Shown here: positions 5,672 to 37,553 of the stretch, piece after piece
Layout of the letters: each line of letters starts with the position of its first letter
Numbering within the stretch: position 1 is the stretch's first letter
Origin: a virus
Virus record (IMG/VR): IMGVR_UViG_3300010885_019416
Coordinates: 1 to 51,439 of that record
Reading direction: 5' to 3' (one strand)
DNA length: 51,439 nt
Made by a program: the position numbers and the translations under genes
Notes under the pieces: model-generated
Databases searched by the model: none
What the model was told of the DNA's origin: nothing
What the model saw: only the letters and a program-made list of their open reading frames with translations

Positions 5672-5677
5672 TAAATA
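5672..5677 (+). promoter_or_regulatory. Late promoter element TAAATA, N5 before gp13 ATG
   Basis: GTAAATA-TCAGT-ATG: the element ends exactly 5 bases before the ATG at 5683, so the predicted transcript starts at or next to the start codon. No Shine-Dalgarno sequence is present. This spacing recurs at many late genes in the window. Confidence 0.65.
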
Positions 5678-5682
5678 TCAGT

Positions 5683-6441
5683 ATGACTGAAAACGAAAAC
5701 GAACGCCAAAAGATAGTTGACTACGCCAAAGCTATGCTAGGTAGTGGCATGATTGATGTTGAATTAGATCCAATTCATTACAATACTGCAATTGACCGAG
5801 CATTGGCTAAATTTCGACAGAGAAGCAGTAATGCATCTGAAGAAAGTTTTGGATTTTTAACTTTACAACTGGATCAAAATGAATATATTTTACCAAAAGA
5901 AGTTACGGAAGTTCGACAAATATTTAGAAGAAGTATCGGCAGCAGAACTGGTGGCGGTCAAGGTGGATCATTGTTTGAACCATTTAATCTTGCATATACC
6001 AATACCTATTTGTTAACTAGTTCTAATATGGGTGGATTGGCTACTTATTATGCGTTTGCAAGTTATCAAAAGTTAGTAGGTAAGATGTTTGGAAGTGACA
6101 TTAATTTTACTTTTAATAGAACTGCTAAAAAATTAAGTATTATGCAACGTCCACGTGGTGAGGAAGAAGTCATGTTGTGGATGTATAACTATCGCCCTGA
6201 TTTTAATTTGATGCAAGACCAATTTGCAGGACAATGGCTTAAAGATTATTCATTAGCAACTTGTAAATTAATGCTAGGAGAGGCTCGTGAAAAATTTGGA
6301 TCTATTGCAAGCCCACAAGGAAGTACAACTCTTAATGGCGCTGCACTCAAAGCTGAAGGCAAGGCAGAAATTGAAACGTTAGAACTTGATCTAATCAACT
6401 ACAAAGACGGCGGAACTCCTCTTACTTTTGTAATTGGATAA
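5683..6441 (+). CDS. gp13: Neck protein gp13-like (head completion)
   Basis: 252 residues from ATG 5683. An in-frame ATG at 5668 lies upstream of the TAAATA element and is therefore less likely. Hallmarks of the T4-type gp13 family are 'AIDRALAKFRQRSSNASEES', 'NEYILPKEVTEVRQIFRRSI', 'KDYSLATCKLMLGEAREKFG' and 'LNGAALKAEGKAEIETLE', ending 'GGTPLTFVIG'. It works with gp14 to close the portal after DNA packaging. The length is somewhat below T4 gp13 (309). Expression should be late and possibly leaderless. Confidence 0.85.
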   Translation: MTENENERQKIVDYAKAMLGSGMIDVELDPIHYNTAIDRALAKFRQRSSNASEESFGFLTLQLDQNEYILPKEVTEVRQIFRRSIGSRTGGGQGGSLFEPFNLAYTNTYLLTSSNMGGLATYYAFASYQKLVGKMFGSDINFTFNRTAKKLSIMQRPRGEEEVMLWMYNYRPDFNLMQDQFAGQWLKDYSLATCKLMLGEAREKFGSIASPQGSTTLNGAALKAEGKAEIETLELDLINYKDGGTPLTFVIG

Positions 6442-6468
6442 TTTTTTAATACTTTTTATATGCGATAA

Positions 6469-6491
6469 TTAATACTTGTAATGAGTATTAA
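6469..6491 (+). other. Perfect 8-bp hairpin just before a glycosyltransferase start
   Basis: TTAATACT (6469-6476), loop TGTAATG, AGTATTAA (6484-6491), ending 3 bases before the ATG at 6495. There is no T-run after it, so it is not a normal terminator. The loop contains an AUG that opens a two-codon frame (AUG GAG UAU UAA begins at 6481). It could mask the start codon region or be an operator dyad. Confidence 0.5.
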
Positions 6492-6494
6492 CTA

Positions 6495-7250
6495 ATGAAA
6501 TCTATTGAAGTCTTTTATCATCTTTATATTCCAGACAATATCCATGCATGTAACTGGGTTTGGTGGGTAGATCAGCAATTATTGTTGATACGCAATTCAA
6601 AATTATCTAATATAGCCAAAATTAACATGGCTATAACTATGCCAAAATATTGGGCAGCAATTAATGGCGCATATTTTGTTAAGAATACCGATCAGGATAT
6701 ACGCATATCGTTTGAAAGTAAAGTAGTAGAATATGTAAATTTACGATATCCATTTGTTAATATTTTAGATATTAGAGATACCGGAGCACCTAACATTTAT
6801 GAAGGGCACACTCTTAAACTACTATATAATAGATGCCAGGAAGCAGATATTGATGTATTATATTTTCATAGTAAAGGTGTACTTAATAATGGATCTGCAT
6901 CTGTGGCAAATTGGAGAGAAATACTTAATCATTTTTGTATAACCGAATGGGCAGAATGTGTAAATCAACTACAACGTGCAGATGTAGTAGGATTGAAAGA
7001 AACATCAAAACTTAATATAATAAGTGGAAATTTTTGGTGGTCAAACTCCGAATACATCAAGACATTGCCGGATCCACTTACTTCAGAAAAATATATGTCG
7101 GCTGCTGATTACTGGCCTGGACAAATATCATATAGGTATTCATTTGAACATTGGGTTGCAGTAAATAATCCAAATATCTATTTTGTTAAAGATACCAAAG
7201 TAAATCACTACAAACAATATTGTTTTTTAGAAGATGTAATAAAACGGTAA
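6495..7250 (+). CDS. Glycosyltransferase-like protein with Y-F-H-S-K-G motif
   Basis: 251 residues, starting 'MKSIEVFYHLYIPDN'. The central 'ADIDVLYFHSKGVLNNG' followed by 'VANWREILNHFCITEWAECV' and 'IISGNFWWSNSEYIKTLP' is shared, in the same order, with the minus-strand proteins ending at 39999 and 41410 ('YCLYLHLKGITH', 'WRWLIDYWNIEKWEDCI', 'SGSCSWTTSNFLKK'). These three are paralogues of a family of short glycosyltransferase-like proteins found in aquatic phages and bacterial glycan clusters. Enzymatic activity is inferred from family company, not shown. No Shine-Dalgarno site is visible; a hairpin ends 3 bases before the ATG. Confidence 0.65.
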   Translation: MKSIEVFYHLYIPDNIHACNWVWWVDQQLLLIRNSKLSNIAKINMAITMPKYWAAINGAYFVKNTDQDIRISFESKVVEYVNLRYPFVNILDIRDTGAPNIYEGHTLKLLYNRCQEADIDVLYFHSKGVLNNGSASVANWREILNHFCITEWAECVNQLQRADVVGLKETSKLNIISGNFWWSNSEYIKTLPDPLTSEKYMSAADYWPGQISYRYSFEHWVAVNNPNIYFVKDTKVNHYKQYCFLEDVIKR

Positions 7251-7268
7251 CATTTAACAAATAAAATA

Positions 7269-7297
7269 TTGACATTACAGTCTAAATAATATAAATT
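7269..7297 (+). promoter_or_regulatory. Promoter region of dNMP kinase (sigma70-like and late elements overlapping)
   Basis: TTGACA (7269-7274) is followed at 15 to 17 bases by TATAAATT, a passable -10. A TAAATA late element (7283-7288) lies inside the spacer. Either start would give a leader carrying TTGAGGA, a Shine-Dalgarno-like site, 5 bases before the ATG at 7319. Confidence 0.5.
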
Positions 7298-7318
7298 ATA
7301 GTATCAGTTGAGGATACT

Positions 7319-8267: not shown

Positions 8268-8297
8268 TTGCGCCCTTTTTGTTGCCTTTTTCATCAG

Positions 8298-8303
8298 TAT
8301 TTA
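8298..8303 (-). promoter_or_regulatory. Late promoter element TAAATA for the zinc-knuckle gene
   Basis: On the minus strand GGTTAAATA. A start about 6 bases downstream gives a leader of roughly 27 bases that carries AAAGGG before the ATG at 8267, supporting that shorter start. Confidence 0.5.
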
Positions 8304-8328
8304 ACCCCTTGTTTTTTGGTATACTAGG

Positions 8329-8334
8329 TAAATA
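8329..8334 (+). promoter_or_regulatory. Late promoter element TAAATA for tail sheath
   Basis: GGTAAATA about 32 bases before the sheath ATG. A start near 8340 gives a 26-base leader with a strong AGGAG site (8352-8356). TATACT just upstream (8320-8325) could serve as a housekeeping -10 but has no good -35. Confidence 0.6.
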
Positions 8335-8365
8335 ATTCAAGTAATCCAATTAGGAGATATTACAT

Positions 8366-11311
8366 ATGGCAACATTGAATTCACCAGGCGTAAGCGTATC
8401 AGTAATTGACGAGAGTTTTTATCTACCGTCAGCACCAGGCACCACGCCTATGTTATTTGTAGCGTCTGCGCAAGACAAAACTAATCCAAGCGGAACAACC
8501 GCACTAGGAACAACTGCTGCTAATGCAGGCAAAGTATGGATAATGACCAGTCAACGTGACATATCAGATACGTTCGGTACACCACTGTTCTATACTGATA
8601 GCAGCGGTAATGCTCAACACGGTAACGAACTAAACGAATACGGTCTACAAGCCGCGTACAGTGTACTTGGTGTAAGTAGTCGTGTTTATGTTGTTCGTGC
8701 AGATATAGACACAAAGGCATTAGTTCCTACTAGCAGCATTCCTGAAGGTGGACCAGTTAACGGCACTTATTGGGTTGATACTGCATCTAGTACATTTGGC
8801 GTTAAAGAATGGAATTCTTCAACACAGGCATTTTCAGTAAAAACTCCTATTGTATTAAACGACGACAATACATCTGCTGATGACTTTAGTGGTGTTGCAC
8901 CAAGTTTAAATATTGGTGTTACCGGTGACTATTGTATGGTTGTTAAAACTGGCAATGCAAATAAATTATATTACAGAAGTTTAACATCTGGATGGATTGC
9001 AGTAGCCAACAATTTTGATACAACTACTAAGAAATTACAAATTAGCAGTCATTATTCATACCCTAATACTGCTGCTTGGGTTACCGGTAGTGTATGGATT
9101 ACTACTACTACTCCAACAAGTGGAGCAAACTGGAGAGTAAAACGTTATAACAGTCTGTCACAAGGGTGGGATACTGTAACTGCACCGTTGTATAGCATTT
9201 TACCAGAAGCTACAAAAGCATATGATCCAGCTGGCGGAAAGAATATCGCAGTGGGTACATTGTTTGTTGAACCAAACTATGAAAATGCTGCTACTGAAGT
9301 TGCTAATTTTAAACTATGGAGACGTCAGGTAGCAGGTGCAACTACTATTGTTAGTGCAGCTAGTAATGCACTTACTCCAGCAGGAACTTATACATTCCGT
9401 ATTAGAGAAACACTAGCAAATTCCAGTGCATGGGGGTCATTTAAAACATGTACTATTACACCTCCTAATACAACAACTGCTCTAGGATCTTTAATTCCTG
9501 CTGCAATTCTTGCTCAAGGATTTACTAACGTATCGGCTACTTATAATTCAACTACCAAACAAGTAACAATTACTCATGCACTTGGTGGTGATTTTGAATT
9601 ACAAGATTTAACTGCGACACCATTAGCAACAGCTGGATTCACTACATCAGTAACAAACTTGTATGCTGCGCCAACTAATGATACTTCAACATTTATTGCA
9701 ACCAACTGGAAAGCATTAACATACGAAGCAAGTGCAAATGATCCAACAACAACTCCTGCAGATAGTACATTATGGTATAGTTCAGTAACTGACGAAGTTG
9801 ATATTATGTATCACAATGGTACAATTTGGCAAGGATACAAAACGGCATTTCCTGCTACAAGTCCAAACGGCCCAATTGTTAGTGCAACTGAACCAGATAA
9901 AGATACTGGTCAAAGCGACGGAACCGCATTAGTAGCTGGTGATATTTGGGTTTCTACAGCAGACATGGACCGCTACGGTAAAGATCTTTATGTATATGAC
10001 ACAACTGCTGGTTGGGTATTGCAAGATACTACTGATCAATCTAGTCCAACTGGCTGGTTGTTTGCTGATGCTCGTTGGGCAAATACAGGAACAACATTAA
10101 CAGCAAGCTCAATTAGCACATTGCTAACTAGCAATTATGTAGATCCCGATGCGCCTGATCCTGCTATATATCCAAAAGGTATGCATTTATTTAATACACG
10201 ACGCAGCGGATTCAATGTTAAGAAATATATTTCTGGACATATAGATCTATATGCTAACGATAGTTTAAACACTCGTTATGGTAACGAAAATATGGTAACT
10301 TTAGGTTACCAAACTGATCGTTGGGTAAGCCAACATAACGTAGCCGAAGACGGATCTGGTGTATTTGGCCGTCACGCACAACGAGCTCAAATAGTACAAG
10401 CATTGAAATCTACAATTGATACTAATGCATTGATTAGAGATACTGATACTATTAACTTTAACTTGATTGCTACTCCTGGTTATCCAGAAGCTATTCAAAA
10501 CATGATTGGATTTAATACAGATCGTGGTATTACAGCATTTGTGGTCGGTGATACTCCATTCCGCTTAGAGCCAAACGGAACAGCGTTAACAGCTTGGGGC
10601 AATAATACTGCTAAAGCATTTGACAACGGTGACGACGGTGCAACAAGTTATGATGAATATATGGCCATGTACTATCCAAGTGGTTATACAAATGACAATA
10701 CTGGTAACTATATTGTTGTTCCACCAAGCCACATGATGTTACGCACTATTATTAATAGTGATGCCAAGAGTTTCCAATGGTTTGCACCAGCAGGAACACG
10801 TCGTGGTGGTGTTGATAATGCTACTTCAGTTGGTTACATTACTGGTGAAGGCGAATTTAAAACAGCAGCATTACATCAAGGTCTACGCGATGTTTTAGAT
10901 GATGTTAAAATTAATCCTATTGCAACATTAACTGGTGTAGGTGTATTGGCTTATGGTCAGCGCACTCGTGCAAAAAATGCTAGCAGTTTAGATCGTATCA
11001 ATGTTGCTCGTTTAGTTTGCTACTTACGTAGACAATTAGACATTCTTGCAAGACCATTCTTGTTTGAACCAAATGATGCACAAACTCGTCGTGAAATTAA
11101 AGCAGCAGCTGAAAGTCTAATGCAAGAATTAGTCGGTCAACGTGCGCTGTATGATTACATTGTAGTTTGCGATACATCTAACAATACTCCAGCGAGAATT
11201 GATCGTAGCGAGTTGTATATGGATATTGCTATCGAACCTGTTAAAGCAGTTGAGTTTATTTACATTCCTCTTAGACTGAAAAATACTGGTGATATCAAAG
11301 CTGGTTTATAA
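8366..11311 (+). CDS. gp18: Tail sheath protein (gp18-like) with very large insertion
   Basis: 981 residues against 659 in T4. The N-terminus ('LNSPGVSVSVIDESFY', then 'GVSSRVYVVRADID') and the C-terminal 390 residues ('HLFNTRRSGFNVKKYISGHI', 'RTRAKNASSLDRINVARLVC', 'YIPLRLKNTGDI') are the sheath core that polymerises around the tube and contracts on infection. Residues about 118-590 are an insertion made of repeating segments of the type G-x-x-W-V-x-T ... W-x-x-x-T-x-A-W ('NGTYWVDTASS', 'AGDIWVSTADMDRYGKDLYV', 'TLWYSSVTDEVDIMYHNGT'). This insertion probably faces outward. Strong leader and AGGAG site fit high expression. Confidence 0.92.
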   Translation: MATLNSPGVSVSVIDESFYLPSAPGTTPMLFVASAQDKTNPSGTTALGTTAANAGKVWIMTSQRDISDTFGTPLFYTDSSGNAQHGNELNEYGLQAAYSVLGVSSRVYVVRADIDTKALVPTSSIPEGGPVNGTYWVDTASSTFGVKEWNSSTQAFSVKTPIVLNDDNTSADDFSGVAPSLNIGVTGDYCMVVKTGNANKLYYRSLTSGWIAVANNFDTTTKKLQISSHYSYPNTAAWVTGSVWITTTTPTSGANWRVKRYNSLSQGWDTVTAPLYSILPEATKAYDPAGGKNIAVGTLFVEPNYENAATEVANFKLWRRQVAGATTIVSAASNALTPAGTYTFRIRETLANSSAWGSFKTCTITPPNTTTALGSLIPAAILAQGFTNVSATYNSTTKQVTITHALGGDFELQDLTATPLATAGFTTSVTNLYAAPTNDTSTFIATNWKALTYEASANDPTTTPADSTLWYSSVTDEVDIMYHNGTIWQGYKTAFPATSPNGPIVSATEPDKDTGQSDGTALVAGDIWVSTADMDRYGKDLYVYDTTAGWVLQDTTDQSSPTGWLFADARWANTGTTLTASSISTLLTSNYVDPDAPDPAIYPKGMHLFNTRRSGFNVKKYISGHIDLYANDSLNTRYGNENMVTLGYQTDRWVSQHNVAEDGSGVFGRHAQRAQIVQALKSTIDTNALIRDTDTINFNLIATPGYPEAIQNMIGFNTDRGITAFVVGDTPFRLEPNGTALTAWGNNTAKAFDNGDDGATSYDEYMAMYYPSGYTNDNTGNYIVVPPSHMMLRTIINSDAKSFQWFAPAGTRRGGVDNATSVGYITGEGEFKTAALHQGLRDVLDDVKINPIATLTGVGVLAYGQRTRAKNASSLDRINVARLVCYLRRQLDILARPFLFEPNDAQTRREIKAAAESLMQELVGQRALYDYIVVCDTSNNTPARIDRSELYMDIAIEPVKAVEFIYIPLRLKNTGDIKAGL

Positions 11312-11315
11312 TAGG

Positions 11316-11321
11316 TAAATA
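11316..11321 (+). promoter_or_regulatory. Late promoter element TAAATA for tail tube
   Basis: GGTAAATAACATAG directly after the sheath stop. A start near 11327 gives a 17-base leader with AAGGAG (11331-11336), 7 bases before the ATG at 11344. Same layout as the sheath gene. Confidence 0.65.
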
Positions 11322-11343
11322 ACATAGATTAAGGAGCATTTAT

Positions 11344-11991
11344 ATGCCAATTGCAAGTTTAAATAGATTTACAGTACCATTGAGTGGAACACAATCAGCA
11401 GCCACTCAAGGGCTGTTGATGCCAAAACTAGCGTATCGCTTTCGCGTTACGTTAGATCAATTCGGAGTAGGTGGAGTATCAAGCACAGAGATGACTAAAC
11501 AAGTTATGACTGTCAGTCGCCCAGAACTTACATTTGATGATATGACACTAGATGTTTACAACAGCAGAATTAAAATGCTAGGTAAGCACAAGTGGGGAGA
11601 TCCAAAACTAAAAATTCGTGACGACGCTAGCGGAGTTGTTAGCAAGAAAGTTGGTGAACAACTACAGAAGCAGTTTGACTTTTTTGAACAAAGCGGTGCA
11701 GCATCTGGTGTTGATTACAAGTTTAGAATGCGTGTTGAAATACTAGACGGTGGTAATGGCGCATACGAACCAGTAACACTTGAAAGTTTTGAATACTTAG
11801 GTTGTTTTATTAAACAAGTTACATATTCAGGCGGAGACTACACTAAAAACGATCCATTAGAAATTGAAATGACAATTTCTATTGATAACGCAATACAATT
11901 AGAAGCACCTGGCGGTGCAGCAAGTGGTGTTGGACTAGATGTTGGAAGAGTTGTACGTGCTGCAAACTCTCAAGGACTAGCAACAGGTTAA
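11344..11991 (+). CDS. gp19: Tail tube protein (gp19-like)
   Basis: 215 residues. 'PKLAYRFRVTLDQFGV', 'TKQVMTVSRPELTFDDMTLD', 'SRIKMLGKHKWGDPKLKIRD' and 'LESFEYLGCFIKQVTYSGGD' are typical of the T4-type tube protein, which stacks in rings to make the DNA conduit inside the sheath. The length is a little above T4 gp19 (163) owing to a longer start and an alanine- and glycine-rich tail. It follows the sheath gene as in T4 and has its own promoter, AAGGAG site and a strong terminator, the pattern of a very highly expressed gene. Confidence 0.9.
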   Translation: MPIASLNRFTVPLSGTQSAATQGLLMPKLAYRFRVTLDQFGVGGVSSTEMTKQVMTVSRPELTFDDMTLDVYNSRIKMLGKHKWGDPKLKIRDDASGVVSKKVGEQLQKQFDFFEQSGAASGVDYKFRMRVEILDGGNGAYEPVTLESFEYLGCFIKQVTYSGGDYTKNDPLEIEMTISIDNAIQLEAPGGAASGVGLDVGRVVRAANSQGLATG

Positions 11992-12010
11992 TAATTACAA
12001 TAACCATACA

Positions 12011-12040
12011 AAACCTGGACTAATCTCCAGGTTTTTCTTT
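12011..12040 (+). terminator. Intrinsic terminator after tail tube
   Basis: AAACCTGGA (12011-12019), loop CTAATC, TCCAGGTTT (12026-12034), then TTCTTT. A perfect 9-bp stem with U-rich tail, immediately before the next late promoter element. Confidence 0.88.
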
Positions 12041-12043
12041 GGC

Positions 12044-12049
12044 TAAATA
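12044..12049 (+). promoter_or_regulatory. Late promoter element TAAATA, N5 before ATG 12055
   Basis: GCTAAATA-TTAGT-ATG, directly behind the tail-tube terminator. The spacing predicts a transcript that begins at the start codon. There is no Shine-Dalgarno site. Confidence 0.7.
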
Positions 12050-12054
12050 TTAGT

Positions 12055-13161
12055 ATGAGCAACGACATTTTTACTAATTTCCTTTCTAACAAAGGATACG
12101 GCCCAAATTTAAGAGACTATCAACATGCAAGTAGACTTTATGTCGATAGCATGTACAGTAATGCTCCTAAATCAGGATTCTTATATTTTGTAAGTTTACA
12201 AATAAATCCAGACGCTGTTAGATCGTCTAATAATAATTTTTCAGATGTTGGACTATTGGCAAAAAAAGTAGATCTTCCTAAATTTACAATTGAAACTGAA
12301 ACAATGAATCAGTACAACAGAAAAACTGTTGTACAAAAGAAACTTTCGTATTCTACTATTAATATTGAGTTGCATGATGACAATAGCGATATGACTCATC
12401 AACTATGGTCCGACTATTATAGAAATTATTATAATGATAGCAACTTAACTGACCGTGCGTTTCAAGATACCAAGTACAAGACCACTGACTATAACTATGG
12501 CAGATATGACAATGGGTTATTGAAAAATTTTATAACTTCACTTGAAATATATGTGTTACATCAGACATATTTTACAAAATATACATTAGTAAATCCTAAA
12601 ATAACTGACTGGCAACATGACTCAGTGGATCAATCAGCAAGTACCAAACTTATGCAAAATAAAATGTCTATTGCATACGAAAATGTGTATTATGATTATG
12701 GTAAAATACAAGGGTCTGAGCTTGATGGGTGGACACATTTTTACGATCAAACACCTAGTCCTCACCCTATCAACGGTGTTGGTGCATCTGACATTTTATA
12801 CGGGCGTAATGGTGAAAGTTCGTTTGATAAACCTAGCAAAGATAGAGTGTTTGGTACCTTCCGACCACAAGTTCCTAATCAATTGCAACAGTTAGGAACT
12901 ATATTACTTAAAAATTATGTTAATGCTAACGGCCTTACTCGTCAAAATGCAGTTGCATATAACATTGCTGGTAGTGTATTGAGTGCCTCACTAAGTACCG
13001 GTGCTGGAAAATATGCAAGCCCACCTAGCACAGAAAGTCAACCAGGTGTGTTTACATTACCAGGGGGTGTTGGTATTAATATATTCAAAGGATTCAATAC
13101 AACAGTAGATGGCAAAATAAGAGCCAACCCTGCTGCAATATTATTTCCTCCTAAAGGTTAA
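12055..13161 (+). CDS. Tail-tube-like virion protein
   Basis: 368 residues. The region 'LLAKKVDLPKFTIETETMN' followed by 'YNRKTVVQKKLSYSTINIEL' and 'DDNSDMTHQLWSDYYRNYYN' resembles the tube-protein fold used by T4 gp19 and by baseplate tube-initiator proteins: a target surface contacts 'LPKF', then a beta-hairpin with 'HDD'. Related proteins are encoded beside gp18/gp19 in T4-like phages of aquatic bacteria and are annotated only as virion structural. It is therefore probably a tube terminator, initiator or neck ring, but which one is not decided by the sequence. The tail has Gly/Pro-rich segments. Own terminator-insulated promoter, leaderless design. Confidence 0.68.
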   Translation: MSNDIFTNFLSNKGYGPNLRDYQHASRLYVDSMYSNAPKSGFLYFVSLQINPDAVRSSNNNFSDVGLLAKKVDLPKFTIETETMNQYNRKTVVQKKLSYSTINIELHDDNSDMTHQLWSDYYRNYYNDSNLTDRAFQDTKYKTTDYNYGRYDNGLLKNFITSLEIYVLHQTYFTKYTLVNPKITDWQHDSVDQSASTKLMQNKMSIAYENVYYDYGKIQGSELDGWTHFYDQTPSPHPINGVGASDILYGRNGESSFDKPSKDRVFGTFRPQVPNQLQQLGTILLKNYVNANGLTRQNAVAYNIAGSVLSASLSTGAGKYASPPSTESQPGVFTLPGGVGINIFKGFNTTVDGKIRANPAAILFPPKG

Positions 13162-13163
13162 AA

Positions 13164-13972: not shown

Positions 13973-13980
13973 GTAATAGT

Positions 13981-14466: not shown

Positions 14467-14472
14467 TAAATA
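14467..14472 (+). promoter_or_regulatory. Late promoter element TAAATA, N5 before ATG 14478
   Basis: AATAAATA-ATACT-ATG; the element overlaps the gp16 stop codon. Same leaderless spacing as gp13 and gp17. Confidence 0.65.
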
Positions 14473-14477
14473 ATACT

Positions 14478-15065
14478 ATGAAAACATTTACTCAATACCT
14501 ATCCGAGTCGGCTAAAAAGTACGACTTCCGTGTAAAAGTAGCCGGAGAGTTTACAACTGAGCAAGAATCATCAATGAAATCATTGTTGAGCAAATACTCA
14601 GTTAGTGGATTTAAAAAGTCCGGAACAACTCCGATTCAAGCACTACCATTAGATTTTCCTCAAGTTAAAAACTGTGAAGTAAGCATCTATGAAGTAGTTT
14701 TAGATTATCCTACAACACAGCAAGAACTTACAGAATATCTAAGCAGTTCATTAGGTGTTAACAAAAGTCATCTTGTAGTACGTAGTCCTAACGAGCATAC
14801 TGAAGAATATCAACACGTAGAACCAAAGCGTGAAGGTGCGTTACTTGATGATCCAGACTACAAAGAAGCAGGTAGTCCTAAGTTTGAAGATTATTATGGT
14901 GACAAATATAATACAGGGTTTGTTAAAGAATTAAACGATATTCTCAAACTTCAGCGTAAAGCACGTGGCGAAGAAATTCCTACTGAAGGCGCCGCAAAAT
15001 TCAATACTGATACTGATGTAAAGCAAGAAAGCCTTTTAAAGGCCCCACAAGACCCAAGGAAATAA
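14478..15065 (+). CDS. Head internal protein with capsid-targeting-like leader
   Basis: 195 residues. The first ten residues, MKTFTQYLSE, have the form of the capsid-targeting sequence of T4 internal proteins (MKT-aromatic-x-x-Phe/Tyr-hydrophobic-x-Glu), which the prohead protease gp21 cuts after the Glu (here after YLSE). The rest is acidic and helical with 'DYKEAGSPKFEDYYGDKYN' and a disordered end 'SLLKAPQDPRK'. I therefore infer a protein packed inside the prohead and processed, either ejected with the DNA or part of the core. It is encoded between the terminase subunits. An uncharacterised virion protein is the safe alternative. Confidence 0.6.
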   Translation: MKTFTQYLSESAKKYDFRVKVAGEFTTEQESSMKSLLSKYSVSGFKKSGTTPIQALPLDFPQVKNCEVSIYEVVLDYPTTQQELTEYLSSSLGVNKSHLVVRSPNEHTEEYQHVEPKREGALLDDPDYKEAGSPKFEDYYGDKYNTGFVKELNDILKLQRKARGEEIPTEGAAKFNTDTDVKQESLLKAPQDPRK

Positions 15066-15067
15066 TT

Positions 15068-16325: not shown

Positions 16326-16353
16326 AAATAGCTCCTCCGGGAGCTATTTTTTT
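16326..16353 (+). terminator. Intrinsic terminator before gp17
   Basis: AAATAGCTCC (16326-16335), tetraloop TCCG, GGAGCTATTT (16340-16349), then TTTT. A perfect 10-bp stem with a stable-type loop; the next late promoter element begins 4 bases later. Confidence 0.9.
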
Positions 16354-16356
16354 CAG

Positions 16357-16362
16357 TAAATA
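16357..16362 (+). promoter_or_regulatory. Late promoter element TAAATA, N5 before gp17 ATG
   Basis: AGTAAATA-ACATT-ATG. It directly follows the terminator, so gp17 is transcriptionally insulated and its message should begin at the start codon. Confidence 0.72.
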
Positions 16363-16367
16363 ACATT

Positions 16368-17954
16368 ATGGGATCAAAAAATTTAGACGGCCAACTAGTA
16401 AAAAAGGCCCACAGCACACAGAAGTTTACGGAAGAACAAATTGATGAATTAATGAAATGTTTGGATCCTGTTGATGGACCACATTATTTCTTAGAACACT
16501 TTTTTCATATACAACACCCTATAAGGGGTAAACTACTGTATGCACCGTTTGCTTATCAGAAGCGTTTAATTGATAGCTATCATACCAATCGTTTCAATGT
16601 AAACTTACTACCACGTCAAACTGGTAAAACTACTACAGCAGCAGGATACCTACTGTGGTTTGCTATGTTTGTACCTGATAGTACTATCCTAGTAGCAGCG
16701 CACAAACACACAGGCGCACAGGAAATTATGGCCCGTATTAGATATGCATATGAATTATGCCCGGACCATATTCGAGCCGGTGCAACTAGCTATAACAAGC
16801 AAAGTTTAGAATTTGAAAACGGTAGTCGTATTGTAGCGCAAACTACCACAGAAACAACAGGTCGTGGTATGTCATTATCATTACTATATGCCGACGAGTT
16901 TGCATTCGTACCACCAAATATTGCCAGTGAATTCTGGACTTCAATTAGTCCTACACTATCAACTGGTGGTAAAGCAATTATTACTAGTACTCCAAACAGT
17001 GATGAAGATCAGTTTTCTCAAATTTGGAAAGAAGCAAATAACAAATTTGACGAGTATGGAAACGAACAAGAATTAGGAAGAAACGGTTTTTACCCATTTA
17101 GAGCATACTGGCATGAACATCCAGATCGTGATGAAAAATGGAAAGCAGAAGAAACTGGACGTATTGGAGAAGAACGATTCCGTCGAGAACATGATTGCGA
17201 ATTCTTGGTATTTGATGAAACATTGGTTAGCAGTATTAAATTAGCAACTCTTGAAGGCTCTCGTCCTATAATGAATATGGGTGAAGCTAGATGGTATAAG
17301 AAAATTAACCCAATGAGTACTTATATTGTATCATTAGATCCTAGTCTTGGAACAGGTGGCGACCCTGCTGCTATACAAATAGTAGAAATACCTAGTTTTG
17401 ATCAAGTAGGAGAATGGACACATAACCTTACTACAGTACAAGGACAAGTGAGAATTTTACGAGATATTTGTAATTATATTAATGACGAGTGTGTTAAGAA
17501 AGGCGCATCAGCTAGTATGTATTATAGTGTAGAAAATAACAATATTGGCGAAGCAGCTCTTGTAGCTATTAATGAAATAGGGGAAGAAAGTATTCCAGGA
17601 ATGTTCTTAAGTGAACCTATTAAGAAAGGGCATGTGCGCAGATTCCGCAAGGGATTTAATACTACCCACTCAGTTAAGATTAATGCCTGTGCTAAATTAA
17701 AATACCTAATTGAAACTGACAGATTAAAGATTAATTCCAAAGCATTTATTAGTGAACTAAAAACGTTTGTAGCAAAAGGATTAAGTTTTGAAGCAAAAGT
17801 AGGAGCACATGACGATCTTGTTAGTTCTATGTTATTGGCATTACGTATGATAATGGTTCTACAAGACTGGGATCCTGCCATTTATGATCGCATGAGAGAA
17901 GAAAAAGACGACGAGTTTATTATGCCAATGCCGATATATATGAACTCCTATTAA
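16368..17954 (+). CDS. gp17: Terminase large subunit (gp17-like)
   Basis: 528 residues. ATPase domain: Walker A 'LLPRQTGKTTTAAGYLLWF' near residue 82, Walker B 'LSLLYADEFAFVP' near 167, coupling motif 'IITSTPNS' near 206. Nuclease domain: 'IVSLDPSLGTGGDPAAIQIV' near 322 (first Asp), 'YYSVENNNIGEAALVAI' near 385 (Glu) and 'HDDLVSSMLLALRM' near 483 (final Asp). The protein pumps DNA into the prohead and cuts it at headful. The motor is intact and of usual length (T4 gp17 is 610). It stands alone between a terminator and the next TAAATA element. Confidence 0.95.
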   Translation: MGSKNLDGQLVKKAHSTQKFTEEQIDELMKCLDPVDGPHYFLEHFFHIQHPIRGKLLYAPFAYQKRLIDSYHTNRFNVNLLPRQTGKTTTAAGYLLWFAMFVPDSTILVAAHKHTGAQEIMARIRYAYELCPDHIRAGATSYNKQSLEFENGSRIVAQTTTETTGRGMSLSLLYADEFAFVPPNIASEFWTSISPTLSTGGKAIITSTPNSDEDQFSQIWKEANNKFDEYGNEQELGRNGFYPFRAYWHEHPDRDEKWKAEETGRIGEERFRREHDCEFLVFDETLVSSIKLATLEGSRPIMNMGEARWYKKINPMSTYIVSLDPSLGTGGDPAAIQIVEIPSFDQVGEWTHNLTTVQGQVRILRDICNYINDECVKKGASASMYYSVENNNIGEAALVAINEIGEESIPGMFLSEPIKKGHVRRFRKGFNTTHSVKINACAKLKYLIETDRLKINSKAFISELKTFVAKGLSFEAKVGAHDDLVSSMLLALRMIMVLQDWDPAIYDRMREEKDDEFIMPMPIYMNSY

Positions 17955-17960
17955 TAAATA
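17955..17960 (+). promoter_or_regulatory. Late promoter element TAAATA, N5 before ATG 17966
   Basis: AATAAATA-CATAT-ATG, overlapping the gp17 stop codon. Leaderless spacing; no Shine-Dalgarno site. Confidence 0.7.
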
Positions 17961-17965
17961 CATAT

Positions 17966-20164
17966 ATGAAACCTATCCAAATTATATCACAAGACCTTTT
18001 TGACAAAGTACGCAGCCGTTTTACCAATTTAGAAATGGGTGACGAAACCGGCGCAGTTACAATTGATCCTGCAGAAGCTAGGTTTTTTGATTTTGACTTT
18101 GTTAATGAAGGTGTTAATTTAGGAAGAGTTAGTATTAGTTTAAACGATCTTGGCAGTTTAAAAATATATTACAGCCAGGGTATTACAGAAAATCAGGATG
18201 ATCAGGCTACACAAATGTGGTTTAATTTTCTTAAAGAAATGCGATTCTTTTCCATGCGTAGATTGCTACGTTTTGATACTCGCGATATTGCAAAAAATAA
18301 TCTTGATAAAAATGATTTTCAACATTTGGCCGCAACACAAGGCCCTAAGGAAGAACCAGATATGACTATGAACGAATCACGTTGGAACCAAAAGAGTTCT
18401 AGCAAAACTAGCCGCGCAGTACAAGGTGCTACTGAAGTTATTGTAAGACATGCAAAACCAGTGGATCCAATGTATGCAGGTAGCCGCAGTCAAAAGAAAA
18501 ACATTAAAGCTATCTACATTCAAAATGCAGACGGCGAGCGTTTTAAATATCCGTTTATCCATCCAGCTGGTGCGTTTGCTATGGCGCAACACGTTGATCA
18601 CGGCGGAGTTCCACACGATCCAGCAGGTAAAGCTATTGTTAAGATGAGCGAAGATCTTGCTCAATTACAAGAATTTCACAGACATATCCAACGTAGTTCG
18701 TTGCACGACGATGCAATGGGAATTACCGAACGGGCTCTAAGCCGAATGGAAGAATTAAAAGCACATATATCAGCATTAGGCAAACGCCAACATTACGAAT
18801 CATGGATTAACGAATTTACAGGTACCGACGACAGCGAAGATATGGTGCTCGATGCCGTAACCCTTGAAGACTATAAGAGTAAATTTACACAAACAAATTT
18901 CCAAGAAGAATTAGCAAGTTTCTTCCCATTATTACATAGAATTATGAGCGAAACTAATACAGTTGACTTAGAGTCATATGTTAGTGAAGCAACCTGCTCA
19001 AAATGTCATTGCGATCCATGTGAGTGCGATGACGAAGAAGAAGTTAAAGAAAGTGCGTTTGCACAATTTGAAGATTGGGCTGAAGCAACAGAACAAGGCA
19101 AACTTACAGACGATCAAATAGCAGAACTTAAATCAGCAATCGAGGCATTACCACAAGGACCAAAAGGACCAGAGTTAGATCTTGAAACAGCAAATAATTT
19201 CTTTAGTGAATTTGGACTTGATGATCCAGATTTGCAACAAGCATTTCAAGACGAATCAAGTAGAGATCCTGAAATACAAGCAACTCCTTTACAAATATTA
19301 CAATCATGGGCAAATAAAAATTATCCAGAATTAGTAACAGCACTAGGAATGGAAGGAGCAGAAGAACCTGCACCTCCAGCTGCTCCTCCAACAGACCCTG
19401 CAATGGCTCCAGCCCCTGCTCCAGTAGAACAACCAGTAGCAGAAGGTGCCGATGGCGCTTCTATGGTACAGGAAGTTGCTCAAATTGTTAAGAGTTTTTA
19501 CAATAAAGACAATCCCGAAGTTGGCCCATTCCGTGGCCCTGAAGGTATTGCCATTGATGTAGAAAAACAAATCAGTGAAAAATTTGGTGAAGAAGCTGGT
19601 CAACAAGCACGCCAAATGGCTGAAATGTTTATGGACAAACTTACAACTGAATGGACCGCACGTCATGGACAAACTGGTGCAGTTGACAGCGGCGACGGTC
19701 TTGCTAGACTAAAAGAACTATTAGGCAATGTAAAATCAAAAGTAGAATGTTATAGCCCAGCCGGTGAAAAAAGTGCAGGCGGATTAGACATGATGAGAGA
19801 ATTGTTAGACAGCGTTAAATCCAAAGTAGAAGCATATGCACCAAGTCAGGAAAACGAAGGTATGTTAGATAAAGCAAAAGAATTTGGTAAAAAAGTTCTA
19901 GACAAAGTTGCACCCGGTGATGATGAATTGTTAAAGCGTCTTGAAAAAGACACCGGCGGCAAGCGTCCTAATATGTATAACAAACCTGAACAGAAAGAAA
20001 ATACCGAATTAGAAAGCATTATGAAATTGGCTGGGCTCGGTGAAGGCGGATTTCCAAAAAAAATTAGTAAAAAAGAAGTTGATAATTTTCAAAAGAAACA
20101 CAATGAAAAATTAAAAGGTCGTGAAGTAAATCGCCAAGAACAAGAAAAAAATAAGAAAAAATAA
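17966..20164 (+). CDS. Large virion-associated protein, 732 aa, unknown function
   Basis: I do not recognise a known fold. Residues 1-115 form a compact domain ('FFDFDFVNEGVNLGRVSISL'). Residues about 150-230 contain 'AIYIQNADGERFKYPFIHPA' and 'GAFAMAQHVDHGGVPHDPAG', conserved in head- or tail-associated proteins of aquatic T4-like phages. A CSKCHCDPCECDDE cluster near residue 345 could bind metal. A Pro/Ala linker (PAPPAAPPTDPAMAPAPAP) follows, then two copies of an R-x-L-L-x-x-V-K-S-K-V-E repeat ('LKELLGNVKSKVE', 'MRELLDSVKSKVE') and a Lys-rich end. It is the last late gene before the gp32 block. Likely a virion structural or ejected protein. Confidence 0.6.
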   Translation: MKPIQIISQDLFDKVRSRFTNLEMGDETGAVTIDPAEARFFDFDFVNEGVNLGRVSISLNDLGSLKIYYSQGITENQDDQATQMWFNFLKEMRFFSMRRLLRFDTRDIAKNNLDKNDFQHLAATQGPKEEPDMTMNESRWNQKSSSKTSRAVQGATEVIVRHAKPVDPMYAGSRSQKKNIKAIYIQNADGERFKYPFIHPAGAFAMAQHVDHGGVPHDPAGKAIVKMSEDLAQLQEFHRHIQRSSLHDDAMGITERALSRMEELKAHISALGKRQHYESWINEFTGTDDSEDMVLDAVTLEDYKSKFTQTNFQEELASFFPLLHRIMSETNTVDLESYVSEATCSKCHCDPCECDDEEEVKESAFAQFEDWAEATEQGKLTDDQIAELKSAIEALPQGPKGPELDLETANNFFSEFGLDDPDLQQAFQDESSRDPEIQATPLQILQSWANKNYPELVTALGMEGAEEPAPPAAPPTDPAMAPAPAPVEQPVAEGADGASMVQEVAQIVKSFYNKDNPEVGPFRGPEGIAIDVEKQISEKFGEEAGQQARQMAEMFMDKLTTEWTARHGQTGAVDSGDGLARLKELLGNVKSKVECYSPAGEKSAGGLDMMRELLDSVKSKVEAYAPSQENEGMLDKAKEFGKKVLDKVAPGDDELLKRLEKDTGGKRPNMYNKPEQKENTELESIMKLAGLGEGGFPKKISKKEVDNFQKKHNEKLKGREVNRQEQEKNKKK

Positions 20165-29278: not shown

Positions 29279-29279
29279 T

Positions 29280-30412: not shown

Positions 30413-30413
30413 G

Positions 30414-32052: not shown

Positions 32053-32063
32053 TAAGTTTTAAA

Positions 32064-32069
32064 TAAATA
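32064..32069 (+). promoter_or_regulatory. Late promoter element TAAATA, N4 before ATG 32074
   Basis: AATAAATA-CATT-ATG. Spacing is one base shorter than the usual N5; the predicted transcript is again essentially leaderless. Confidence 0.6.
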
Positions 32070-32073
32070 CATT

Positions 32074-32907
32074 ATGCAAATTTTACCAATCTATTTATAC
32101 GCAAATAAACTTGATGTGATACTAGATCTGGACGACACAATCAGGGGAGTTAATCAAGTTATGTATCAACGCGATCTAACAATACAAAAGGGAATTAAGA
32201 ATCAAGTAAGAATTCAATTCAAAAACAGCGACCAAAAAAGAATATCAATATCCACTACACAAACATTCGTGTTTAGTATGTTTGACGCTATAAATCAACG
32301 TCTTATGATTGAAAAGGAACTTACGGTGCTTGCGGAAACTACTAGCACCAAAGGTACCGCATTGCTAACTCTAACTGAAAGCGATACACTAGACTTAGAT
32401 AAATCAAGCTATACATATAGTGTAAAAGTAAAAGATAACGACGGAACATATACTGCTGCTTATGCTAATACTTACTACGGTATGAACGGCACGATACATA
32501 TTTCTAACGATATATATCCTGTATTGAAAGATAGTGCTGAAATTACCAGCTTCAACCCTGATTACAATAACACTACTCGTCTATATGAACACAAGAGCGG
32601 AAAAATATATGCGTTTCCTGAATATAACGGAAATACAGCATTGCATACCGTGGCACTTTATATGACCGCATATAAAGGAACTGTGTTGATACAGGGTACA
32701 TTAAATAACTCTCCAAATGGTGATTCTGATTTTTATACTGTGTCTACAATTCCATATACTGGATTTACTGGCGTGGACTATGTAAACTTCAATGGCGTAT
32801 TTACATATATACGTATTGTTTATATACCGGCCACTGCACCTGCTGGCACAATTAACAATAATCCTAATTTCTTCGGTTCGTTTGACAAAGTATTGTACAG
32901 AAGTTAA
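32074..32907 (+). CDS. Virion structural protein, baseplate or fibre-like
   Basis: 277 residues. The first 140 residues have the form of phage baseplate-upper-protein type domains: beta-rich with 'NQVRIQFKNSDQKRISISTT' (polymer backbone strand), 'TKGTALLTLTESDTLDLDKS', 'YTYSVKVKDNDGTYTAAYAN' and 'MNGTIHISNDIYP'. The C-terminal half ('TVALYMTAYKGTVLIQGTLN', 'FNGVFTYIRIVYIPATAPAG') is a beta-sandwich like a carbohydrate-binding or fibre-head module. Isolated late gene between replication genes, with its own late element. A role in tail tip or fibre attachment is likely; no catalytic motif. Confidence 0.65.
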   Translation: MQILPIYLYANKLDVILDLDDTIRGVNQVMYQRDLTIQKGIKNQVRIQFKNSDQKRISISTTQTFVFSMFDAINQRLMIEKELTVLAETTSTKGTALLTLTESDTLDLDKSSYTYSVKVKDNDGTYTAAYANTYYGMNGTIHISNDIYPVLKDSAEITSFNPDYNNTTRLYEHKSGKIYAFPEYNGNTALHTVALYMTAYKGTVLIQGTLNNSPNGDSDFYTVSTIPYTGFTGVDYVNFNGVFTYIRIVYIPATAPAGTINNNPNFFGSFDKVLYRS

Positions 32908-32915
32908 ACTAGTGC

Positions 32916-33920: not shown

Positions 33921-35397
33921 AAAAGAAAAACTCCCTAAACCAAATTATACCAGCGAGATGCAATGCTTGTATCTTGAAATGTTTTTGTCAGATGCAGAAA
34001 CATTTGTACGCTGTCAAAACATTTTTGATCCACTTAACTTTGATCAACGCTATCAAGATACCGCAGCATTTATTACAAAATATGTTGATGACTATAAGGT
34101 AATGCCCGAAGCATCTATTGTGAATGCCAGTTGTAAAATGGATCTACAACCTGTGCAATTGGCCAAGGAAAACTATGATTGGCTTATGGACGAGTTTGAA
34201 AACTTTAGTCGTCATAAAGGTCTTGAACGTGCTATTATTGCCAGTGCTGATTTACTTGAAGCAGGCGACTATGGACCAGTAGAAAAACTAATCAAAGACG
34301 CTATACAGATATCGTTAAACAAGGATATGGGTACAGATTACTTTGAAGATCCAAGAGCACGTCTAAGTAAACTTAAAGATGGTAACGGACAGATCAGCAC
34401 AGGCTGGCCTAGCATTGATAAGAAACTGTATGGCGGATTTAATAGAGGTGAACTGAATATTTTCTGTGCAGGATCCGGCGGCGGTAAGAGTTTGTTCTTG
34501 GCCAATATGGGTGTGAATTGGGCACAGCAAGGACTTAACGTATTGTACCTGACATTCGAATTGAGTGAAGGTCTTGTATCTATGCGTCTTGACAGTATGA
34601 TGACTGGTATTAGTACTAGAGAAATCTTTAAGAATCTTGATGAAGTTGAATTGAAAGTTAAAGTACTTGGTAAGAAATCTGGAAACTTACAAATTAAGTA
34701 TATGCCAAGCGGTAAGAATTGTAATGACATTCGTGCGTATTTGAAAGAATATCAAGTTAAGAAAGGGTGCAAACCTGATGTTATCTTGATTGACTATTTG
34801 GACTTGATGATGCCACTGAGTGTTAAAGTTAGCCCTAGTGACTTGTTTGTTAAAGACAAATATGTATCTGAGGAAATTCGTAACTTGGCTATGGAGACAC
34901 AATGTATTACTGTAACTGCTAGTCAGCTCAATCGTAGTGCTGTTGAAGAAATTGAATTTGATCATAGTCATATCTCAGGTGGATTATCTAAGATTATGAC
35001 AGCGGATAATGTTATTGGTATCTTTACTAGTAGAGCTATGAAGGAACGCGGTCGCTATCAAATACAGTTTATGAAAACTCGTAGCAGTAGCGGCGTTGGA
35101 CAAAAAGTTGATCTAGAATTTGATATGGATACATTGCGTATTACTGATCTAGGCGAAGACGGAGATACTGCTAGTTTTAATCAAGGTGGTGGACAAGGTA
35201 ACAGTAGCAGCGGTAGTTCTATGATGCAGGGATTTAAACGAACTAGCACAGTAAGCACCAGTTCAGGTGGCGGTCAACCTTGGGAACGACCTACTCCAGT
35301 TGAAGGATGGAGTTTAGAAAAACCGCAAGCCAAAGGTGTTAAGGCAGCGGGTGATATCCGTAATATGATTGCTAACTTGAATAGCGAAAAAGATTAG
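33913..35397 (+). CDS. gp41: Replicative DNA helicase (gp41-like, DnaB family)
   Basis: 494 residues. N-terminal helical primase-binding domain, then RecA-type core: Walker A 'IFCAGSGGGKSLFLANMGVN' near residue 190, 'NVLYLTFELSEGLVSMRLDS', Walker B 'PDVILIDYLDLMMPL' near 293, 'CITVTASQLNRSAVEE' and 'KTRSSSGVGQKVDLEFD' near 380. A Gly/Ser-rich, disordered C-terminal extension ('GGGQGNSSSGSSMMQGF') ends the protein. It unwinds the fork 5' to 3' as a hexamer and travels with gp61 and gp32. Its stop overlaps the convergent AlgH-family gene by 4 bases. Confidence 0.92.
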   Translation: MNKKEKLPKPNYTSEMQCLYLEMFLSDAETFVRCQNIFDPLNFDQRYQDTAAFITKYVDDYKVMPEASIVNASCKMDLQPVQLAKENYDWLMDEFENFSRHKGLERAIIASADLLEAGDYGPVEKLIKDAIQISLNKDMGTDYFEDPRARLSKLKDGNGQISTGWPSIDKKLYGGFNRGELNIFCAGSGGGKSLFLANMGVNWAQQGLNVLYLTFELSEGLVSMRLDSMMTGISTREIFKNLDEVELKVKVLGKKSGNLQIKYMPSGKNCNDIRAYLKEYQVKKGCKPDVILIDYLDLMMPLSVKVSPSDLFVKDKYVSEEIRNLAMETQCITVTASQLNRSAVEEIEFDHSHISGGLSKIMTADNVIGIFTSRAMKERGRYQIQFMKTRSSSGVGQKVDLEFDMDTLRITDLGEDGDTASFNQGGGQGNSSSGSSMMQGFKRTSTVSTSSGGGQPWERPTPVEGWSLEKPQAKGVKAAGDIRNMIANLNSEKD

Positions 35398-35954
35398 AAC
35401 CAGTTGGCCACTTGTTCTCTGCTGGATTCACCTATCACACGATGCCACTGATCAATGTCAGTATAACCAAATACAGTGTCAGGTTCTGCAGGAATGAAAC
35501 TCCAACTATGATTGATTGTCCAGGGATCTTCACCTAATACTTCACCTTCTAGGTGCCCCGGTAACCAACGTGTGAATCCTGCTATGGCTCTGTAATAAGA
35601 TGGACCTTCATTATTGCTAATTGCTGTTAGTACTGATATATCACTACTGATTCCTATTTGATCAGTTACTTTATTTGTTGTGGGACTAAACCAATCTAAT
35701 GTATGTATGATATGTATACGGTTAGTAGACGATGGCCCTCCATTATAAAGTGGCTGATCGTTTTGCATTGTTAGGCCTACATTTTTCATAACCGAATCTA
35801 TTGATAGATTGCTATTGTATGGTTTATTAATTTGAAGACCTATGGCACCTGCATTATCATGATCTATCACTAGTATAGTAGAACGGCGTAATAATCCTTC
35901 TTCTCGCTTGGGATGGGATGCTAATAGGTAACCTGTATAATTTTGTTCGAACAT
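35394..35954 (-). CDS. AlgH/YqgE (UPF0301) family protein
   Basis: 186 residues. 'GYLLASHPKREEGLLRRSTI' , 'HDNAGAIGLQINKPYNSNLS', 'PLYNGGPSSTNRIHIIHTLD' and 'AIAGFTRWLPGHLEGEV' reproduce the UPF0301 hallmarks (opening 'LLA-x-P', 'GA-x-GL-x-x-N-x-P', 'GGP ... R-x-x-x-x-H', 'G-x-x-x-W-x-PG-x-LE-x-E'). Family members are bacterial cytoplasmic proteins of unknown mechanism; P. aeruginosa AlgH affects alginate genes. It stands divergently from a nucleotidyltransferase with a TAAATA element exactly 5 bases from its ATG, so it belongs to the late, leaderless class. Confidence 0.85.
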   Translation of the reverse strand: MFEQNYTGYLLASHPKREEGLLRRSTILVIDHDNAGAIGLQINKPYNSNLSIDSVMKNVGLTMQNDQPLYNGGPSSTNRIHIIHTLDWFSPTTNKVTDQIGISSDISVLTAISNNEGPSYYRAIAGFTRWLPGHLEGEVLGEDPWTINHSWSFIPAEPDTVFGYTDIDQWHRVIGESSREQVANWF

Positions 35955-35959
35955 GAAAT

Positions 35960-35965
35960 TATTTA
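35960..35965 (-). promoter_or_regulatory. Late promoter element TAAATA, N5 before the AlgH-family ATG
   Basis: On the minus strand GGTTAAATA-ATTTC-ATG. Back to back with the plus-strand element at 35971-35976, only 5 bases apart. Confidence 0.68.
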
Positions 35966-35970
35966 ACCGA

Positions 35971-35976
35971 TAAATA
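35971..35976 (+). promoter_or_regulatory. Late promoter element TAAATA, N7 before ATG 35984
   Basis: CGATAAATA-CTTTTAT-ATG. A start 5 bases past the element leaves a 2-base leader, AU-AUG. Confidence 0.62.
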
Positions 35977-35983
35977 CTTTTAT

Positions 35984-36670
35984 ATGGCTATACTTGACTT
36001 TAATTTGGGATTTGAACCCCATGAACAACTTAATCCCAAATTATGGAAGGGCAATCAATTGCGCCCCGATATACAATCAGCTTTGATTAAAATTGCTCAG
36101 GATTTTAAAAAATTTATTGATGTTCCGTTTGATATTGTAGATGTTAGAATTACCGGCGGGCAGGTATCATACTTCTATACAGAACACAGCGACTTGGATC
36201 TACATTTGATTTGCGATTTTGATAGTGTGGCATGTGATAGAGAAGCTGCGGAAATGTTTGATGCTAAACGCTTACTTTACAAAGCCAAATACGATATTAC
36301 TGCTAATAGTATACCTGTGGAACTGTATGTGGAAAATTTAGATCACCCTGCGGTTAGTGCTAGTTACAGCATTATAAAACGTGCTTGGATTAAACAACCA
36401 GAACGCGATGTTGGACCATTTGATATTGATAATATTGAGAAATTAAGCAATGTGTGGGCTACGATAATACGACATAGTTTGGCGTCAAAAGATGCAGAAA
36501 CTGCCAAAAAAACTATGAATTTATTACGTAAATTCCGCCATTTAGGCCTCAAAACAGGCGGAGAATATTCGACAGCTAATCTAGTATATAAAACACTTAG
36601 AAACAGCGATCTTATTAAAAATCTTCAAAATTTCATTGATCAGGAACATGATCGAACTCTAAGCATCTAA
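35984..36670 (+). CDS. Nucleotidyltransferase-fold protein
   Basis: 228 residues. 'VDVRITGGQVSYFYTEHSDL' followed by 'DLHLICDFD' is the polymerase-beta-type nucleotidyltransferase motif (G-G/S ... S-D-L-D-L), with the two Asp that bind Mg2+ and a third acidic residue likely in 'IPVELYVENL' (Glu near residue 112). 'YSIIKRAWIKQPERD' and the helical 'ETAKKTMNLLRKFRHLGLKT' complete the known phage version. Family members adenylate or guanylate proteins, RNA or small molecules; the target here is unknown. Paired divergently with the AlgH-family gene and expressed late. Confidence 0.72.
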   Translation: MAILDFNLGFEPHEQLNPKLWKGNQLRPDIQSALIKIAQDFKKFIDVPFDIVDVRITGGQVSYFYTEHSDLDLHLICDFDSVACDREAAEMFDAKRLLYKAKYDITANSIPVELYVENLDHPAVSASYSIIKRAWIKQPERDVGPFDIDNIEKLSNVWATIIRHSLASKDAETAKKTMNLLRKFRHLGLKTGGEYSTANLVYKTLRNSDLIKNLQNFIDQEHDRTLSI

Positions 36671-36705
36671 TATCAAACTGTGCCTAGTGTACACATAGTT
36701 GTTTG

Positions 36706-36711
36706 TAAATA
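36706..36711 (+). promoter_or_regulatory. Late promoter element TAAATA, N5 before ATG 36717
   Basis: TTTGTAAATA-CCACT-ATG. It heads the glycan cluster on the plus strand and sets the start at 36717; the TTG at 36699 precedes the element. Confidence 0.68.
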
Positions 36712-36716
36712 CCACT

Positions 36717-37553
36717 ATGATAACATTAGTATGGCAGTGTAACCTAGCATCATCTTGGGAATGTGACTGGATTGAATTTTTATTTCAACATATCCCGCAT
36801 ACTACTATTACCGATTACAATCAATCTACCTGCATAGATAATAGTGTGCTTATCTATAACAGTACTGTGAATAATGCTGCTTATCTAAAATCTCTTTCCG
36901 ATAACGGAATTACGTTTGGACTAATACATCTTAGTGACGAATGGGATAAAGATCCAACTGATCACTATAAGTTGGCTAAGTTTGTACTTAGGAACTATTA
37001 TAAAGATATTGGCCCTAATGTACTGAATATTCCATTAGGATGGATGAAAACATTTCCTCACAATATTATTCCTAAAACTTCTAAACAAAGAAAATATACC
37101 TGGGCATTTAGCGGACATGTAGATAAAACTACTCGCCCTATGATGGTTCAATATATGTCAACCATAGAAAATGGGCAACATTACTTTAAAAAGTGCGGTG
37201 AAAATTGGGGAGCATTTGATGGACAAGCATTAGATCCAGTTGGCCTTGCTGAATTATATAATGATTGCTTATTTGTACCATGCCCAACAGGTAATCAAAG
37301 TATAGATACTCTAAGGGTATGCGAAGCATTACAGTCAGGTAGTTTACCTATTGTTGAACGCAGCGAGTATTGGTCAAAGTTATATGGCGCCAACCATCCA
37401 CTAATTGAAATAGACAATTGGAATCAAGCACCTGAAATTATTAAAAATCTTACTATTAATATGGATGACTTTGAAATTAAAAGATTGTATACTTACAATT
37501 GGTGGCATGATCATTGCGATCATGTAAAAAATAAAATAAAGGAACGTATATGA
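36717..37553 (+). CDS. Exostosin-like glycosyltransferase
   Basis: 278 residues from ATG 36717 (MITLVWQCNLASSWECDWIE). 'KYTWAFSGHVDKTTRPMMVQ' and the block 'LFVPCPTGNQSIDTLRVCEA' + 'LQSGSLPIVERSEYWS' are the exostosin/GT47-type donor-binding region (F-x-P-x-G-x-x-x-D-T-x-R-x-x-E-A-L-x-x-G-x-x-P-V). Such enzymes are inverting, GT-B fold. The gene opens the plus-strand part of the glycan cluster and overlaps the next gene as ATGA. Acceptor unknown. Confidence 0.75.
   Translation: MITLVWQCNLASSWECDWIEFLFQHIPHTTITDYNQSTCIDNSVLIYNSTVNNAAYLKSLSDNGITFGLIHLSDEWDKDPTDHYKLAKFVLRNYYKDIGPNVLNIPLGWMKTFPHNIIPKTSKQRKYTWAFSGHVDKTTRPMMVQYMSTIENGQHYFKKCGENWGAFDGQALDPVGLAELYNDCLFVPCPTGNQSIDTLRVCEALQSGSLPIVERSEYWSKLYGANHPLIEIDNWNQAPEIIKNLTINMDDFEIKRLYTYNWWHDHCDHVKNKIKERI

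Follow-up and report, generated by a model that had tools for sequence, protein, structure and literature searches.

Where do late messages begin when the promoter lies almost on the start codon, and how are such messages translated? The question is raised by IMG/VR virus record IMGVR_UViG_3300010885_019416, analyzed here in its entirety (51,439 bases, 'the window'), which probably represents only part of a larger genome and belongs to an uncultured jumbo phage of the T4 superfamily. At a series of its genes the hexamer TAAATA, the core of T4 late promoters, ends only a few bases before the ATG, most often five (N5, where the numeral counts the bases between the hexamer and the start codon). 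T4 is the textbook case of late transcription, and its late genes are usually translated from messages led by a Shine-Dalgarno (SD) site. We consider it probable (about 0.86) that the close-spaced genes are expressed from gp55-type promoters as late mRNAs with leaders of 0–2 nt and are translated as leaderless messages.

A fixed spacing between TAAATA and ATG

Seven N5 units had been listed in a preliminary description of the window, and all are present, with TAAATA at 5672, 12044, 14467, 16357, 17955, and 36706 on the plus strand and at 35965–35960 on the minus strand, and ATGs at 5683, 12055, 14478, 16368, 17966, 36717 (plus), and 35954 (minus). Its three cases of other close spacing are likewise correct: the hexamer at 32064 stands N4 from ATG 32074, that at 35971 N7 from 35984, and that at 5668 (minus) N7 from 5655. 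All seven N5 ATGs start open reading frames (ORFs) of at least 186 aa. TAAATA-N5-ATG occurs 7 times against 1.8 expected, and 7 or more occurrences were seen in 0 of 100 dinucleotide shuffles. When only ATGs opening real ORFs are counted, N5 has 7 cases, whereas the other spacings average 0.29 (Poisson 2.4e-8), and permuted A4T2 hexamers reach no more than 2 at N5. The hexamer itself is underrepresented in the window (49 seen vs. 82 expected), as if selected against outside promoters.

A count of N5 against other spacings genome-wide had been set beforehand as the refuting test. It was made on the window and ten contigs of its family (two of >318 kb), read whole or nearly whole, with gene starts assigned by ORF logic and homology. 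The outcome did not refute the proposal: N5 is the commonest spacing in 10 of the 11 contigs, G006 being richer in N4, and exceeds other spacings in each (P from 3.7e-3 to 4.8e-12), including one contig of 48% GC. The distance from TAAATA to ATG is bimodal in the family, with a spike at N4–N7 (mode N5; the close class) and a broad hump at N14–N35 (the leadered class). In nine contigs, 113 close sites are spread over 44 protein families, so a single repeated gene is not the source of the signal. At loci whose terminase large subunit (terL) has at least 58% identity to that of the window, 508 close and 294 leadered sites were counted, and at loci below 58%, 16 and 199, pooled counts that are not independent events since the contigs have common ancestry. 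T4, Syn9, Atu_ph07 (398 kb read), and PA5oct have the N14–35 hump only and no N4–N7 class.

The two classes also differ in translation signals. SD sites (GGAG, GAGG, or AGGA at −20 to −4) precede 3 of 113 close genes vs. 73 of 145 leadered genes, so the claim that the close-spaced genes lack them stands; the figures for other ORFs and for in-gene controls are 209 and 28 of 547, respectively. The ratio of ATG to other start codons is 508:4 in the close class and 294:110 in the leadered range, or 113:3 vs. 145:67 in the nine-contig subset (Fisher 1.5e-11). In N5 units, T is at −1 in 89%.

The predicted transcription start

In T4, numbering of the 8-bp late box starts at −13 (PMC2988020). The box thus ends at −6, which puts +1 on the sixth base past TAAATA, and by T4 numbering the +1 of N5 units would be the A of ATG. 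The gp55-type box would thus be set so that transcription starts at, or within ~2 bases of, the start-codon A. Late RNA polymerase would make a 5′-AUG mRNA at N5, with N4, N6, and N7 shifting the start by about −1 to +2, and in such messages, devoid of leader and SD site, the 5′-terminal AUG would be recognized directly to start translation, as in known leaderless mRNAs. A second late set (sheath, tube, and a long fibre) uses the identical box at 14–35 nt, together with an SD site.

The likeness to T4 late promoters (gp55/gp33/gp45-dependent, TATAAATA) lies in the TAAATA core, the lack of an evident −35 element, the virion genes downstream, and a gp55 homologue. A TATA-like box with this core precedes late structural genes, as is typical of T4-type late promoters. 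Homologues of gp55 were found in 8/8 large contigs searched (G001–G008; E 1e-76 to 1e-88 with phrog_12791; in G001 at 131858-132646), and none in the window, G009, or G010, all of which are fragments. T4 and Syn9 differ in that their promoters stand 14–35 bases from the ATG, with an SD site in most T4 cases. The T4-type core that had been proposed holds for the hexamer but not for the two bases before it, which are not T4's TA: position −13 in the family is mostly A or G rather than T, resembling the Aeh1 variant (a/gC; PMC2988020), so the full consensus TATAAATA (−13 to −6) is not matched. As such variants occur in T4 relatives (PMC2988020), the difference lowers identity with the T4 consensus, not class membership.

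Several points weigh against leaderless expression. The box-to-start distance for the family is taken from T4, and the predicted 5′ ends and mode of translation follow from the spacing and T4 numbering. Among the family's own leadered promoters, the excess of purines at +1 is modest (65% vs. 49% in the control). An exact rule of +1 at A is broken by the N4, N6, and N7 members unless the start site is flexible, and those with N6 and N7 would carry leaders of 1–2 nt, not zero. On the supporting side, a purine occupies the homologous +1 position of leadered promoters, where no AUG is required, in 96% of cases in Syn9 and 76% in T4. Predictions going beyond the preliminary description also hold, namely near-exclusive ATG, T at −1, terminators upstream of some units, a gp55 gene, and fixed orthologue spacing.

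The promoters could be real and yet start transcription elsewhere, or the genes could be expressed mostly from read-through polycistronic mRNA with coupled translation, the leaderless message being minor. Two units would suit this: TAAATA-ATACT-ATG at 14467..14480 (+; gene 14478–15065, a virion structural protein) and TAAATA-CATAT-ATG at 17955..17968 (+; gene 17966–20164) stand directly behind upstream stop codons, that of terL in the second case, so that both genes start about a dozen bases past a co-directional stop. However, terminator-like hairpins lie upstream of 20 of 113 close promoters vs. 1 when shuffled, and two of them, each with a T-run, are in the window. One (12010..12035, +) is just upstream of TAAATA-TTAGT-ATG at 12044..12057 (+; gene 12055–13161, a tail-tube-related protein), and the other (16326..16349, +) just upstream of TAAATA-ACATT-ATG at 16357..16370 (+; terL, gene 16368–17954). 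These genes therefore need a promoter there and are unlikely to rely on read-through.

Nor do the divergent pairs 5655/5683 and 35954/35984 have a co-directional upstream gene for coupling; their start codons are 27 and 29 bp apart with both boxes between them, and both pairs recur in other contigs. In the first, TAAATA-GAATACT-ATG at 5653..5668 (−, N7; gene 4465–5655, a virion structural protein) faces away from TAAATA-TCAGT-ATG at 5672..5685 (+; gene 5683–6441, a gp13-like head-tail adaptor Ad2). For the latter gene, the promoter contains a further ATG in frame, at 5668, but orthologues start at the 5683 position. In the second, TAAATA-ATTTC-ATG at 35952..35965 (−; gene 35394–35954, an AlgH-like (DUF179) protein) is paired with TAAATA-CTTTTAT-ATG at 35971..35986 (+, N7; gene 35984–36670). 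The near-total ATG rule, too, is not expected for coupled genes, and we regard predominant read-through, or a start elsewhere, as improbable.

TAAATA-N5-ATG could instead be a translation-initiation element, that is, an A/T-rich ribosome or S1 site in longer mRNAs, rather than a promoter. The spacing is indeed measured to the start codon, and some bacteria do have A/T-rich initiation sites of a non-SD kind. On the other hand, these genomes, like those of T4 and Syn9, also carry the identical hexamer 14–35 bases before start codons, with SD sites following it. The leadered late promoters that had been claimed for sheath and tube are of this kind, at 8329..8368 (+; N31 with TTAGGAGA; sheath gene 8366–11311) and 11316..11346 (+; N22 with AAGGAG; tube gene 11344–11991). 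The hairpins just upstream of 12044 and 16357 and the presence of gp55 genes also count against an initiation element, as do the PA5oct orthologues, which retain TAAATA with a leader and SD site. In PA5oct, the counterparts of genes 14478 and 5655 follow such a leader and start from the same Met, which supports these two start codons and rules out their misassignment. An initiation element thus seems very unlikely.

Chance or A/T-rich composition is excluded by the shuffle, hexamer, spacing, and GC counts and has next to no probability. A/T-rich DNA does abound in both TAAATA and ATG, but TAAATA falls below expectation in the window, N5 outnumbers shuffles, permuted hexamers, and other spacings, and the peak is missing in the A/T-richer PA5oct and T4 while present in the 48% GC contig.

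Gene-specific classes and their recurrence

The proposal that late genes fall into two translation classes proves real, and the classes are largely gene-specific across wide divergence. Orthologues of terL are N5 in 64 of 86 hits, those of gene 17966 N5, N6, or N7 in 40, 27, and 7 of 77 (74/77 together), those of gene 12055 N4–N6 in 57/63, and those of gene 35954 N5 in all three found. Of 24 hits for gene 5655, 23 are N4–N7, and only that in PA5oct departs (leader with AGGAG). Genes 5683 (N5 in 15 orthologues) and 14478 (N5 or N7 in 43/71 hits) are clear class switchers: distant members have both of them behind a leader and SD site, and PA5oct has 14478 in that form as well. Close spacing was seen in none of 28 sheath and none of 57 tube orthologues. 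The capsid gene has an SD site and no TAAATA within 60 bases. Sheath, tube, and a fibre would agree with a division into leadered high-copy and leaderless low-copy genes, but the cases are too few for such a rule.

The match of gene 17966 is to a virion structural family; the portal proper is another close-class gene (G003:54835-56559, N4). The N4 unit TAAATA-CATT-ATG at 32064..32076 (+) precedes gene 32074–32907, a virion structural protein, and a second TAAATA at 32060 gives N8. The weakest of the seven N5 units is TAAATA-CCACT-ATG at 36706..36719 (+; gene 36717–37553, RXYLT1_C match), because no orthologue was found among the sampled contigs and its ORF is also readable from TTG 36699.

A terL tree made by a quick method has a single clade (129 rows) filled by the close class, with a Shimodaira–Hasegawa-like approximate likelihood ratio test (SH-aLRT) value of 98; PA5oct and one contig from a metagenome-assembled genome (MAG) form its sister group. 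One contig, L318, from a Methylophilaceae MAG bin, has only leadered TAAATA promoters, unlike other contigs of similar terL identity (59%, the best hit spanning only part of the gene). MAG bins holding related contigs were also considered for host identity, but they are mixed and unreliable.

The arrangement recurs outside the family. In a marine T4-like group (L383–L462; terL ~30% identical to that of the window), 92 N5 and 20 N6 sites were found, mostly at few genes, e.g., one starting MEIFGFEI. In the cultured Pelagibacter phage HTVC008M (NC_020484; loci L464, L466–L468), 12 annotated gene starts carry an N5 unit, vs. 0.62 per other spacing (P = 3.7e-12). The ATGs of these units are at 6280, 7562, 11972, 18943, 19456, 31132, 49760, 75559, 75830, and 142360 (plus) and at 18916 and 16007 (minus), whereas the genes at 36520, 46046, 46310, and 51699 have predicted leaders of ~10–30 nt. 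The phage resembles the family in having leadered SD genes beside N5 genes and a divergent N5 pair (18916−/18943+, 26 bp between start codons), and differs in its distant T4-like lineage (Kyanoviridae) and stricter spacing. The close class was not found in its relatives Syn9 (whole genome) and P-SSM2 (50-kb late region), suggesting a separate origin in HTVC008M, and the architecture probably arose more than once. It is not common to all marine T4-like phages, as Syn9 and the P-SSM2 and C48C1 regions have none and Melnitz has one site in 50 kb. Searches of the open-licence literature turned up no account of leaderless late genes of the T4 type and none of N5 late-gene units in HTVC008M.

Leaderless mRNAs are exemplified by lambda cI and many mycobacterial genes, which the close class resembles in a predicted 5′-AUG, lack of SD, and nearly obligatory AUG. 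Unlike in those cases, the predicted leaderlessness would be a property of a viral late promoter itself and extend to dozens of genes under one sigma factor. Initiation on leaderless mRNA is known from reviews (PMC9031893), and kasugamycin spares such messages (PMC5230787). If leaderless expression is real for this clade-wide class of genes, late transcription would be coupled to translation in a new way in common aquatic phages, which would also provide a natural collection of leaderless genes, dozens in number, with a single sigma factor in control. Since HTVC008M is cultured and has 12 clean units beside leadered ones, a laboratory system exists in which this is testable now. For annotation, start calls reliant on SD sites may miss or shift such genes.

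A broader reading, speculative and rather unlikely, is that T4-superfamily phages converted a large share of late genes to leaderless ones, at least twice independently, as the gp55 promoter slid onto the start codon, leaving two translation classes whose ratio may be set via ribosome state, perhaps through phage bS21. Genes for bS21 are in three family contigs of >320 kb (L346, L347, and L348, i.e., G015, G014, and G013) and in PA5oct (L208), so absence of phage bS21 is rejected as the cause of the close class. A protein with the IF3 C-terminal domain is encoded in Phosso, Atu_ph07, and PBECO4 (L211, L212, and L213). None was found in the window's family, where absences count for little because most contigs may be incomplete, or in PA5oct, so that absence of phage IF3 does not separate the classes.

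The window among jumbo phages

The late cluster of the window, syntenic with that of jumbo phage PA5oct, comprises a virion protein, the gp13-like adaptor, dNMP kinase, sheath, tube, the tube-related protein, terL, and a gp32-like single-stranded DNA-binding protein. By terL identity, PA5oct is the closest named relative (55%), followed by Sinorhizobium phage Phosso (49%), Atu_ph07 (47%), and the GAP32/PBECO4 group (~42%); the close relatives are IMG/VR contigs (60–89%). An Rfam scan of the window gave no match. A relative, L095 (G001:5650-18512), carries 41 tRNA genes within ~13 kb. In the window, a homing-endonuclease-like gene at 25771–26532 (−), on the strand opposite to its neighbours, has its own leadered TAAATA box (N22, AAGGAAG).

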